Shown: piece by piece, positions 16,206 through 29,972 of the stretch
How the letters are laid out: the number at the start of each line of letters is the position of its first letter
How positions within the stretch are numbered: the first letter of the stretch is position 1
Notes under the pieces: model-generated
Databases searched by the model: none
What the model was told of the DNA's origin: nothing
Seen by the model: the letters and a program-made list of their open reading frames with translations, nothing else
Assembly: GCA_003599595.1 (NCBI GenBank)
Contig: QZIP01000048.1
Span: 1 to 38,284 of the forward strand
From: Candidatus Parcubacteria bacterium
GTDB lineage: Bacteria; Patescibacteriota; Microgenomatia; Levybacterales; GWA1-39-11
DNA: 38,284 nucleotides
Direction of reading: 5' to 3'
Translations under genes and position numbers: made by a program

Positions 16206-16442
16206 ATGTTTTACACATATGTTCTAAAGAGCAAAAGGGATGACAAGCTATATGTAGGACATAGTGATAATTTAAAGAATAGAATTCAAAAACACAATAA
16301 AGGATTGGTAAAATCTACAAAAGACAGGAGACCTTTGCAATTGATGTATTACGAAGCCTGTTTGAATGAGAGTAAATCGATTAAGAGGGAACAGTACTTT
16401 AAAACTGGTTTTGGAAGAAGGTTTTTGAAAAATAGAATATAA
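16206..16442 (+). CDS. Small GIY-YIG endonuclease, upstream of tRNA-Lys
   Basis: A 78-residue stand-alone GIY-YIG domain (YhbQ/URI type). YTYVLKSKRDDKLYVGHSDN carries the paired YxY...YVG motif, NLKNRIQKHNKG supplies the conserved Arg and His, and the Glu of KREQYFK (about residue 62) completes the metal site; it ends in GFGRRFLKNRI. All catalytic positions are kept. No DNA-binding module is attached. The gene ends 84 bases before tRNA-Lys, and a paralogue follows on the other side of the tRNA. No Shine-Dalgarno; the mRNA leader would be very short. Confidence 0.92.
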   Translation: MFYTYVLKSKRDDKLYVGHSDNLKNRIQKHNKGLVKSTKDRRPLQLMYYEACLNESKSIKREQYFKTGFGRRFLKNRI

Positions 16443-16480: not shown

Positions 16481-16531
16481 GGCCCCCGCCCGCCACGCAA
16501 GCCGAGCCTGACGAGGCGTTGCGGGAGGGCC
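16481..16531. repeat. GC-rich stem-loop whose 3' arm enters tRNA-Lys
   Basis: GGCCC, CCCGC and CGC blocks at 16481-16498 pair with GCG, GCGGG and GGGCC at 16516-16531, with a bulge and a two-base mismatch, around an inner GCCT/AGGC hairpin. The 3' arm includes the first bases of the tRNA acceptor stem. Confidence 0.6.
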
Positions 16532-16602
16532 GATAGCTCAATTGGCAGAGCAAAAGCCTTTTAAGCTTTTGGTTCCGGGTTCGAGTCCCGGTCGGCTCAC
16601 CA
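16527..16602 (+). tRNA. tRNA-Lys (anticodon TTT)
   Basis: Acceptor GGGCCGA pairs with TCGGCTC (one G-T), the D-stem is GCTC/GAGC, the anticodon stem AAAGC/GCTTT closes loop CTTTTAA (anticodon TTT), the T-arm is CCGGG-TTCGAGT-CCCGG, discriminator A, and CCA is encoded at 16600-16602. Both ends take part in larger palindromes with outside sequence. Confidence 0.95.
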
Positions 16603-16640
16603 AGCTAAGCTTGGTGAATATCGAGCTCAGCTCGATCACC
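16598..16640. repeat. Two perfect triloop hairpins after tRNA-Lys
   Basis: CACCAAGC-TAA-GCTTGGTG (16598-16616) includes the tRNA 3' end CACCA in its left arm. ATCGAGC-TCA-GCTCGAT (16620-16636) follows and is itself framed by GGTG/CACC. The second GIY-YIG ATG comes three bases later. Confidence 0.85.
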
Positions 16641-16643
16641 ATA

Positions 16644-16916
16644 ATGTATTACATTTATATTTTATTCTCGGATAAAGATAAACAACTTTATACAGGATTT
16701 ACAGATAATCTCCGCTCACGATTTAAAGCTCATACTGAAGGATACGTCAAGGCAACTAAGCATAGAAGGCCAATAAAACTAATTTATTATGAAGAGTATC
16801 AATCTGAGTCGGATGCGAGAAGAAGAGAAAAATACTTAAAAGGTGGGAATGGACGGAAAGAATTAAAAATACAGCTTAAAGATATATTTACCGAACTTAA
16901 ATATAAAAATCTTTAG
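16644..16916 (+). CDS. Small GIY-YIG endonuclease, downstream of tRNA-Lys
   Basis: 90 residues from the ATG at 16644 (MYYIYILFSDKDKQLYTGFT); longer frames would begin inside the tRNA. YIYILFS...LYTGFTDN, RFKAHTEG, YYEEY and RREKYLKGGNGRKELK are the conserved blocks, with the catalytic Tyr pair, Arg and Glu present. It is clearly paralogous to the gene on the other side of tRNA-Lys and to the pair at tRNA-Glu. Stand-alone nucleases of this kind act on DNA; its natural target is unknown. The hairpins just before the ATG leave no room for a Shine-Dalgarno. Confidence 0.92.
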   Translation: MYYIYILFSDKDKQLYTGFTDNLRSRFKAHTEGYVKATKHRRPIKLIYYEEYQSESDARRREKYLKGGNGRKELKIQLKDIFTELKYKNL

Positions 16917-29034: not shown

Positions 29035-29160
29035 TCCTAAGCAGCTCCTAACTCCTAGGTTAATAATTTCAGATCTTAACAATACAAATTCATATTCTTG
29101 CATAAATGGCTTCAGCTTTGGTAAAATAGAATTAGATAGAGATTTAGCTCTAGTCTGTGA

Positions 29161-29235
29161 GCCGCGTTCGTTCCCGATGGTAGTTTTCATACGGGATCCC
29201 GATGACAACGATCATCGGGGCTAGTGGCCCAGGAC
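29161..29235 (+). pseudogene. Broken copy of the tRNA-Glu 5' half, split by a double hairpin
   Basis: GCCGCGTTCGT (29161-29171) and CTAGTGGCCCAGGAC (29221-29235) match tRNA-Glu bases 1-26 with one mismatch, but 49 bases are inserted between them. The insert is two hairpins that both open with TCCCGATG (29172-29196 and 29197-29219). The next nuclease gene starts five bases after the fragment. Confidence 0.8.
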
Positions 29236-29239
29236 TAAA

Positions 29240-29494
29240 ATGTTTACGACATATATACTAAAAAGTGAGAAAGATGGTAGATTTTATATTGGTAGTACAG
29301 GTAATATTTCTGAAAGAATAATAAGACACAATAAAGGATACTCAAAATACACTAAAGGGAAGGGTCCTTATAAATTAATTTATAAAGAAGATTATAATAC
29401 TTTAGCTGAAGCAAAAAAGAGAGAGTATTATTTAAAATCATTAAAAAGTAAGGTTGCAATTGAAAAAATAGTAAATAGAGCCGCGTTCGTCTAG
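29240..29494 (+). CDS. Small GIY-YIG endonuclease ending inside tRNA-Glu
   Basis: 84 residues: TTYILKSEKDGRFYIGSTGN, RIIRHNKG, LIYKEDY, KKREYYLKSLKSK. The GIY-YIG Tyr/Gly pattern, Arg and Glu are present. The last six codons (NRAAFV, TAG) are read from the first bases of tRNA-Glu (29480-29494), so the reading frame borrows its C-terminus and its stop from the tRNA. Just upstream is a partial tRNA-Glu copy. Family members usually end in similar basic or variable tails, so activity is possible. No Shine-Dalgarno is seen. Confidence 0.92.
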   Translation: MFTTYILKSEKDGRFYIGSTGNISERIIRHNKGYSKYTKGKGPYKLIYKEDYNTLAEAKKREYYLKSLKSKVAIEKIVNRAAFV

Positions 29495-29553
29495 AGGCCC
29501 AGGACGACTGGTTTTCAGCCAGTAAATCAGGGGTTCGAATCCCCTACGCGGTA
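29480..29553 (+). tRNA. tRNA-Glu (anticodon TTC)
   Basis: Acceptor GCCGCGT pairs with ACGCGGT (one G-T at the end), the anticodon stem ACTGG/CCAGT closes loop TTTTCAG with anticodon TTC, and the T-arm has AGGGG-TTCGAAT-CCCCT. Discriminator A. CCA is not fully encoded (ACCG follows). The 3' acceptor strand is followed directly by its inverse, forming ACGCGGT-ACCGCGT. Confidence 0.94.
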
Positions 29554-29689
29554 CCGCGTCAAACGCGGCTTCGCCCAAGAAGCCAAGTTTGAAACCACGT
29601 CAAACGTGGTTTAGCGTGTCGCGTGTGACGCGACGACTAACGAAATATATTTTTATGGAAACGTTTGACGTTTCCTCGCTTTCAGCGAG
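29546..29689. repeat. Chain of six perfect hairpins between tRNA-Glu and the next GIY-YIG gene
   Basis: In order: CCGCGT-CAA-ACGCGG (29554-29568); GGCTTC/GAAGCC with a six-base loop (29567-29584); a nine-bp stem AAACCACGT / ACGTGGTTT with loop CAA (29592-29612); GTCGCGT-GTG-ACGCGAC (29618-29634); GGAAACGT-TTG-ACGTTTCC (29657-29675); CTCGCT-TTC-AGCGAG (29675-29689). Four share the core CGT-N3-ACG. The last two lie inside the next gene. Confidence 0.92.
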
Positions 29690-29972
29690 ATATTACGTAT
29701 ATATTTTATACTTTTATAGTGATAAGGGTTTCTACATTGGATTTTCCACAAACTTGAAAGATCGCTTAATAGATCATGCCAGCGGAAAAGTATTCTCAAC
29801 AAAAGATAGAATTCCATTCAAATTAATCCACTATGAATATTTCATTAATAAAAAAGATGCAAAAGCAAGGGAAGAATTCCTTAAAAGTGGATATGGAAGA
29901 GATCAGCTTAAAAATTTTCTAAAGAATACACTTCTAATGATTAAGGGTAGCAGGAATACAAAAGCTAAATAG
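29655..29972 (+). CDS. Small GIY-YIG endonuclease after tRNA-Glu, N-terminus encoded by hairpins
   Basis: 105 residues from ATG 29655. The first 11 codons (METFDVSSLSA) are made of two perfect hairpins, and the true domain starts RYYVYILYFYSDKGFYIGFS. NLKDRLIDHASG, LIHYEYF and AREEFLKSGYGRDQLK complete the GIY-YIG pattern with the catalytic Tyr, Arg and Glu present. A longer frame from 29589 reads through the other hairpins and is rejected. It is the fourth paralogue in the window and the second at tRNA-Glu. Confidence 0.88.
   Translation: METFDVSSLSARYYVYILYFYSDKGFYIGFSTNLKDRLIDHASGKVFSTKDRIPFKLIHYEYFINKKDAKAREEFLKSGYGRDQLKNFLKNTLLMIKGSRNTKAK

Follow-up and report, generated by a model that had tools for sequence, protein, structure and literature searches.

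The hairpins clustered behind a tRNA-Glu gene at 29546-29689 probably (roughly two chances in three) make up the 5' leader of a small mobile element which carries a single GIY-YIG nuclease gene and resides directly behind the 3' end of the tRNA, the six hairpins having arisen by repeated gains of one unit within this one leader. Element and leader, here called type A, form a well-supported conserved module in Patescibacteria, and solo copies of the hairpins at tRNA genes and in protein genes suggest that there is a very small mobile element of a kind not yet described. The window is the whole stretch of DNA analyzed (38,284 nt), a complete contig of a Microgenomates (Patescibacteria) draft genome; L-numbers denote the sequence regions compared, G-numbers the genomes. 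Counts across genomes were obtained by searching for patterns and protein families.

Hairpins and GIY-YIG genes in the window

All six perfect inverted repeats described in the original prediction are present, and the four CGT-N3-ACG cores attributed to the block are found, with tips at H1, 29592, 29618 and 29657 (Table 1). A seventh inverted repeat, H1, overlaps the first two; it is this repeat that is conserved among relatives. Five stems of at least 6 bp do not overlap, and the last two hairpins (29657, 29675) fall within the nuclease reading frame. Folded as DNA, the block reaches -43 kcal/mol (z = -7.0), a value matched by 0 of 200 shuffles. The scan for stems of at least 5 bp with 3-nt loops marks its density as exceptional: the block has four such non-overlapping stems, shuffled sequences three at most (5000 trials), and four were found in just one of 10,662 other 144-nt windows of the same genome (regions L119-L138). 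The hairpin at 29567-29584 is variable among relatives, the L187 version being GGCTTCGCCAGAAGCC, while the extra hairpin at 29592-29612 is found in L193 too, and is missing from L149 and L187.

Table 1. Features of the tRNA-Lys and tRNA-Glu loci of the window
Feature	Positions	Strand	Remarks
Further GIY-YIG ORF	16206-16442	+	upstream of tRNA-Lys
tRNA-Lys, host of type B element	16527-16602	+
Type B leader, TCACCAAGCT-a-AGCTTGGTGA and ATCGAGCT-c-AGCTCGAT	16597-16636	+	tip GCT-N-AGC
Type B GIY-YIG nuclease ORF	16644-16916	+
Duplicated 5' part of tRNA-Glu	29159-29171 and 29221-29235	+	split by hairpin insert 29172-29220
Second GIY-YIG ORF, other subfamily	29240-29494	+	3' end overlaps tRNA-Glu 5' end
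tRNA-Glu (ttc), intact host gene	29480-29555	+	ARAGORN; Rfam tRNA 29480-29553, 58.3 bits
Palindrome ACGCGG-ta-CCGCGT	29546-29559	+	spans tRNA acceptor strand to H1 5' arm; from sequence
H1, CCGCGT-caa-ACGCGG	29554-29568	+	flush with tRNA-Glu 3' end; first hairpin of type A leaders
GGCTTC-gcccaa-GAAGCC	29567-29584	+	between H1 and H2
Extra GT-CAA-AC hairpin, AAACCACGT-caa-ACGTGGTTT	29592-29612	+
H2, GTCGCGT-gtg-ACGCGAC	29618-29634	+
Type A GIY-YIG nuclease ORF	29655-29972	+	ATG 29655; conserved domain from 29691; Pfam GIY-YIG 4.7e-12
H3, GGAAACGT-ttg-ACGTTTCC	29657-29675	+	within first codons of nuclease gene
CTCGCT-ttc-AGCGAG	29675-29689	+	inside nuclease reading frame

Two origins had been suggested for the block. 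Inverted copying of the tRNA end in steps finds no support, the arms of H1 being identical after tRNAs of other sequence. The accumulation of small hairpin elements holds up, as single hairpins are gained as units, and occur elsewhere both alone and as twins. The first hairpin had also been described as built on the tRNA acceptor strand; the palindrome exists, but its match to the tRNA is probably a coincidence, because in relatives H1 is unchanged after tRNAs with quite different acceptor stems. The acceptor stem of tRNA-Glu, GCCGCGT/ACGCGGT (29480-29486, 29546-29552), equals the consensus of the H1 arms, CCGCGT/ACGCGG, a likeness which may reflect coincidence or conversion; the stem differs in two relatives (GGCCCCAT in L103 and L115).

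The view that no known feature type explains the block had overlooked the GIY-YIG genes on both sides of it. The interval 29159-29235 is the leader of the ORF starting at 29240, and the same arrangement is found in L103 and L115. The tRNA-Lys locus resembles that of tRNA-Glu, being flanked by GIY-YIG ORFs on both sides (16206, 16644), with two perfect hairpins immediately behind the tRNA and before the type B ORF. PF01541 matches in this genome number 19. The search by synteny for an empty tRNA-Glu site gave none, the neighbours of the window not being conserved in the relatives compared.

Transcription terminators or tRNA processing signals are a highly improbable source of the hairpins. H1 begins exactly at the tRNA 3' end, as such a signal might; yet here it lacks a following T-run, Rfam finds no family at the block, and tRNA 3' flanks hold 3.4 hairpins/kb when no GIY gene is present vs. 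8.0 when there is one. In the window as a whole Rfam returned tRNAs only, with no other RNA family at the hairpins, and group I introns, riboswitches and other Rfam RNAs were discarded as candidates.

The type A module at tRNA and tmRNA ends

A conserved gene or RNA in relatives had been named beforehand as evidence against the original prediction, and the relatives do carry the block as a conserved module with three hairpins. In 37 type A leaders from Patescibacteria, H1 lies at the 3' end of a tRNA or tmRNA, sharing the CC of the tRNA CCA, and is followed by H2 and then by H3, which overlaps the start of the nuclease ORF. All the leader hairpins have the tip GT-NNN-AC, with loops of the classes CNN (H1), NNG (H2) and YNG (H3). 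The 37 leaders hold 112 GT-NNN-AC hairpins vs. 0.86 in shuffles; at the same loci, two lie in the 300 nt downstream of the ORFs, and the ORF bodies are free of them. Host genes are tRNA-Glu, His, Ile, Lys, Gly, Arg, Ala and Pro, and, in at least 12 cases, tmRNA; 12 of 13 tmRNA/tRNA 3'-end insertions checked by Rfam were confirmed. The tRNA and tmRNA genes adjoining the nuclease ORFs remain intact. A piece of the tRNA 3' end is clearly repeated after the ORF in only one type A copy (L149), and likewise in other subfamilies at tRNA-Gln, Leu and Gly. No occupied/empty pair of the same tRNA site was found for type A. The hairpin GCTCTGAAC-catata-GTTCAGAGC lies within an in-frame insert of the L149 nuclease ORF (from 1501).

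Stems vary freely with compensation, and the tip pairs alone are invariant. In 62 distinct hairpins 95.9% of cells are paired, with 126 two-sided changes vs. 41 in shuffles; as the inner four pairs helped pick the hairpins, unbiased covariation is that of the outermost pair and of the free N-N pair of the H1 pattern, the latter being paired in all listed matches except six. Arms are perfect in 98 of 116 type A leader hairpins. Perfect arms and few mispairs might be left by the repair of cuts at tRNA ends, if these were mended by fold-back synthesis, the resulting hairpins having no function and their centre being fixed by the cut or the enzyme. The overlapping palindromes at the tRNA end and the gain of hairpins as whole units would fit such scars. 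They would not explain the fixed order of three hairpins with distinct tip classes in the leaders of many families, and H1 arms that stay constant after different tRNAs are not copies of the tRNA end; this origin appears quite improbable.

The type A protein has 93 aa from the domain start, and consists of the GIY-YIG catalytic domain alone. Homologues are 54-73% identical to the nuclease of the window. Residues Y4, Y15, G17, R25 and E61, which we take to be the catalytic positions after I-TevI, are invariant in 16 members. The AlphaFold model has a pLDDT of 90; the nearest solved fold is UPF0213 1zg2, the catalytic domain of I-TevI coming next, weakly. UPF0213 is the nearest family by sequence too, 1ywl and 1zg2 being the nearest solved structures. 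Relatives were found neither in 50,697 phage records nor in the viral contigs searched, and a phage origin was dropped.

Hairpin tips and nuclease subfamilies

For the comparison of tips, nucleases were grouped by sequence into A, B, C and D. Type A leaders contain 106 GTnnnAC and no GCTnAGC hairpins; in the five core members of type B the figures are reversed (11 GCTnAGC, no GTnnnAC). Two proteins grouping with B have GTnnnAC. The tip CCT-N-AGG is found in four of the five members of group D, C-NNA-G in group C. Stems are variable inside groups A, B and C. The match of tip and subfamily could stem from common descent of leader and gene instead of binding.

GIY-YIG genes beside tRNAs

The association with tRNAs was monitored in 61 regions from this genome and relatives (1.08 Mb), selected for GIY-YIG and tRNA genes. 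Small GIY-YIG genes were counted as tRNA-linked when a same-strand tRNA lies up to 200 bp upstream or up to 300 bp downstream. Same-strand tRNAs accompany 43 of 68 genes, random placement yielding 4.7 (maximum 12 in 1000 trials); opposite-strand tRNAs are near 3 of 68. Perfect hairpins peak in tRNA-linked leaders, at 8-10/kb with a tRNA on one side and 6.3/kb with tRNAs on both, the leaders of unlinked GIY-YIG genes being at the overall level (2.1/kb).

Two arrangements can be distinguished. In the first, the order is intact tRNA, hairpins, ORF. In the second, the ORF comes first and the intact tRNA directly follows, the leader being a duplicated 5' piece of the tRNA interrupted by hairpins; this order is found at tRNA-Glu (29159-29235), Val (L118), Arg (L116), Pro (L089), Leu (L120), Gln (L119) and others. 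The Glu version is common to two other genera, in each of which the duplicated piece matches the tRNA of the host itself; the upper stem is altered yet paired. At 29221-29240, and at tRNA-Gln in L119, the D-arm AGGAC of the duplicated piece sits where a ribosome binding site for the nuclease ORF would be expected. A near-identical hairpin, GTCGCCT-N-AGGCGAC, recurs at the place of the anticodon arm in duplicated-tRNA leaders of several genera (L118, L079, L100, L037, L122). Two further settings were observed. In L086 (9646-9852), a GIY-YIG ORF lies right behind a sequence resembling the 3' region of 16S rRNA (GTACACACCGCCCGTCA), and in L004 (1200-1400) hairpins and a GIY-YIG ORF come after an apparent CAT-anticodon tRNA that a group I-like intron seems to interrupt.

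Solo and twin hairpins

The H1 pattern, CCGNGTCAAACNCGG, has 194 copies residing in 97 of 373 genomes of the class, the reversed pattern 5-6. Among 53 sampled H1 sites, five are nuclease leaders, 14 are twins and 34 are single. Twins are made up by H1 and an H2-type hairpin, usually separated by a spacer of 2-5 nt. Units measure 15-21 nt, twins about 35 nt. Several solo copies are flush with tRNA 3' ends or, reversed, with tRNA 5' ends. In leaders, gain of an entire 21-nt hairpin is seen in L148 relative to L145, and in L193 relative to L149. Copies beyond the element's own average 1.35 per genome when a type A nuclease is present vs. 0.35 when it is not (Fisher p = 0.001, kinship ignored).

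Single copies in protein genes may partly be chance matches or in-place changes. The sole clean case is guaB of G040, where the segment GVPQ...ADG has 31 aa, as compared to 26 aa in most relatives; the five added codons are the H1 hairpin, gained in frame (15 nt). In the rplL hinge of G191 (L242) a hairpin is present but adds no length relative to 11 relatives, and this candidate insertion was rejected. In serS, two genera (L273 and L275; G040 and G038) share the position of H1 within the N-terminal coiled coil, so some gene copies may be old; the region around it is variable among the relatives compared. In recF, G038 and its congener G058 feature different palindromes at one spot, and the surrounding region is variable. 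In dprA (L264, L280), the H1 sequence is in frame. Other in-frame repeats are also recurrent, namely CCTGCCTGCCGGCAGGCAGG (peptide LPAGRQ), CCCTCTCCC..GGGAGAGGG and a CAGGCTCAGGGCAAG-type repeat. They reside in guaB of G002 (L300), recF of G058 (L348) and the rplL hinge (L385 and L387), at spots where other genomes have the GT-NNN-AC hairpin.

Nine H1 copies reside in G040, where a threshold of E<=1e-10 yields no type A nuclease; G060 has H1 copies as well, and no type A nuclease was found in it. In G040, hairpins persist, or move, without a type A nuclease, which is the chief weakness of a nuclease-driven mechanism. Both genomes would be expected if the hairpins were an independent palindromic family, akin to Rickettsia palindromic elements, moved by another enzyme and often landing beside GIY-YIG genes; the in-frame insertion in guaB and the presence of other palindromes at the same tolerant sites would also be in line with it. 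Such a family is rather unlikely, since the tip motif tracks the nuclease subfamily, the H1-H2-H3 order before the gene is constant, and solo copies are commoner in genomes with the nuclease.

DNA or RNA

Leader stems contain 3 G-U and 7 A-C among about 830 pairs, and almost lack the wobble pairs that a structured RNA leader would tolerate; tRNA acceptor stems at the same loci have 78 G-U (4.4%) and 4 A-C among 1764 pairs. Of the perfect hairpins in tRNA-linked leaders, about one in two has a loop of 1-2 nt, a size not usable as such in RNA. The scarcity of G-U pairs and the short loops favour DNA as the level at which the hairpins act or arose, which fits better than regulatory RNA, and is compatible with some effect in the mRNA. 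An excess of A-C (36) over G-U (13) just beyond the stems was dropped as evidence, being due to common flanks of H1.

Hairpins acting in the mRNA, either by hiding the ribosome site or in autoregulation of the nuclease, with the gene merely being part of the tRNA transcript, would fit several observations: hairpins are consistently upstream of the ORF and overlap its start, stems covary, and leader hairpins are known in homing nucleases of phage T4, including segB, which lies between tRNA genes (PMC2988022). We consider such a leader unlikely on the above pair and loop counts, and because nuclease-free copies occur behind tRNAs, reversed at tRNA 5' ends, and in protein genes.

A possible mechanism

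Coming back to the mobile element, its mobility and the recognition of hairpins by the nuclease are what we infer from sequence comparisons. Each nuclease would recognise the hairpin tip of its own subfamily in single-stranded or cruciform DNA, not in RNA, and the mobile hairpins would probably be the recognition sites of the element's nuclease. The enzyme may cut tRNA/tmRNA ends and hairpins, and repair after the cut could copy in the whole element, i.e. homing into tRNA ends with the tRNA kept intact, or alternatively the hairpins alone.

It is conceivable, at somewhat less than even odds, that this is a new mobile system, in which subfamily-specific recognition of tips by small GIY-YIG nucleases of Patescibacteria spreads both the nuclease element and hairpins of 15-40 nt. 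As tentatively read here, the element would target tRNA/tmRNA 3' ends, and hairpin units would enter tRNA ends and, in frame, protein genes. If so, few known mobile DNA units would be as small as these. Palindromic mini-elements of bacteria and mitochondria have long been seen, their mover not being known; here the tip is tied to the subfamily of the adjoining nuclease, which makes a direct test of enzyme and substrate possible. Such a system would also account for the multiplication of GIY-YIG genes in these reduced genomes and their clustering at tRNA/tmRNA genes, and for certain unusual short insertions that essential proteins of Patescibacteria contain.

Comparison with known systems

The literature searched contains no description of tRNA/tmRNA-linked GIY-YIG elements with hairpins. 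UPF0213 comprises small GIY-YIG proteins, among them the Ssn single-strand nucleases; type A resembles them in domain and size, its hairpin specificity being putative. In REPIN-RAYT systems, the enzyme is a Y1 HUH transposase and hairpins have tips of the GTAG type. Type A is similar in that the enzyme gene is flanked by hairpins of a kind dispersed in the genome, inverted twins included. It differs because the hairpin-associated gene is GIY-YIG, tips are GT-NNN-AC, and tRNA/tmRNA ends appear to be aimed at.

Rickettsia palindromic elements are about 100-150 nt long. They are palindromic units found in frame in protein genes (PMC2635572), as is the hairpin in guaB of G040; type A units differ in measuring 15-40 nt, in being associated with a nuclease gene and in their preference for tRNA ends. 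Mitochondrial double-hairpin elements are single or double hairpins with complementary substitutions in the stems, residing in and near RNA genes (PMC2800124). The hairpin units described here share the compensated stem changes, but are bacterial, and tied by the tip to a nuclease subfamily.

As in free-standing homing endonucleases, the GIY-YIG domain has invariant key residues and the adjoining conserved gene is intact; the RNA structure of a group I intron is missing around the ORF (Rfam, window). SegB of phage T4 is a free-standing GIY-YIG homing endonuclease located between tRNA genes, with hairpins upstream (PMC2988022). A regulatory RNA leader is a feature of I-TevI of T4, too. Type A shares with SegB a single GIY-YIG gene beside intact tRNA genes, hairpins upstream and no transposase (PMC2988022). 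Unlike SegB, type A has only the catalytic domain (about 100 aa), is chromosomal, lies flush at tRNA/tmRNA ends of many isotypes, and features several hairpins with a subfamily-specific tip, which are also dispersed.

GIY-YIG genes have also been described in rRNA genes of CPR bacteria, in insertions that are neither group I nor group II introns (PMC11270868). The text mentions neither hairpins nor tRNA (PMC11270868), and type A elements differ by their location at tRNA/tmRNA ends; the bacterial radiation is the same, and the rRNA insertions are perhaps of the same class as the tRNA/tmRNA elements. By analogy, the type A element would join the workings of a free-standing homing nuclease to a hairpin family resembling REPINs or RPEs.
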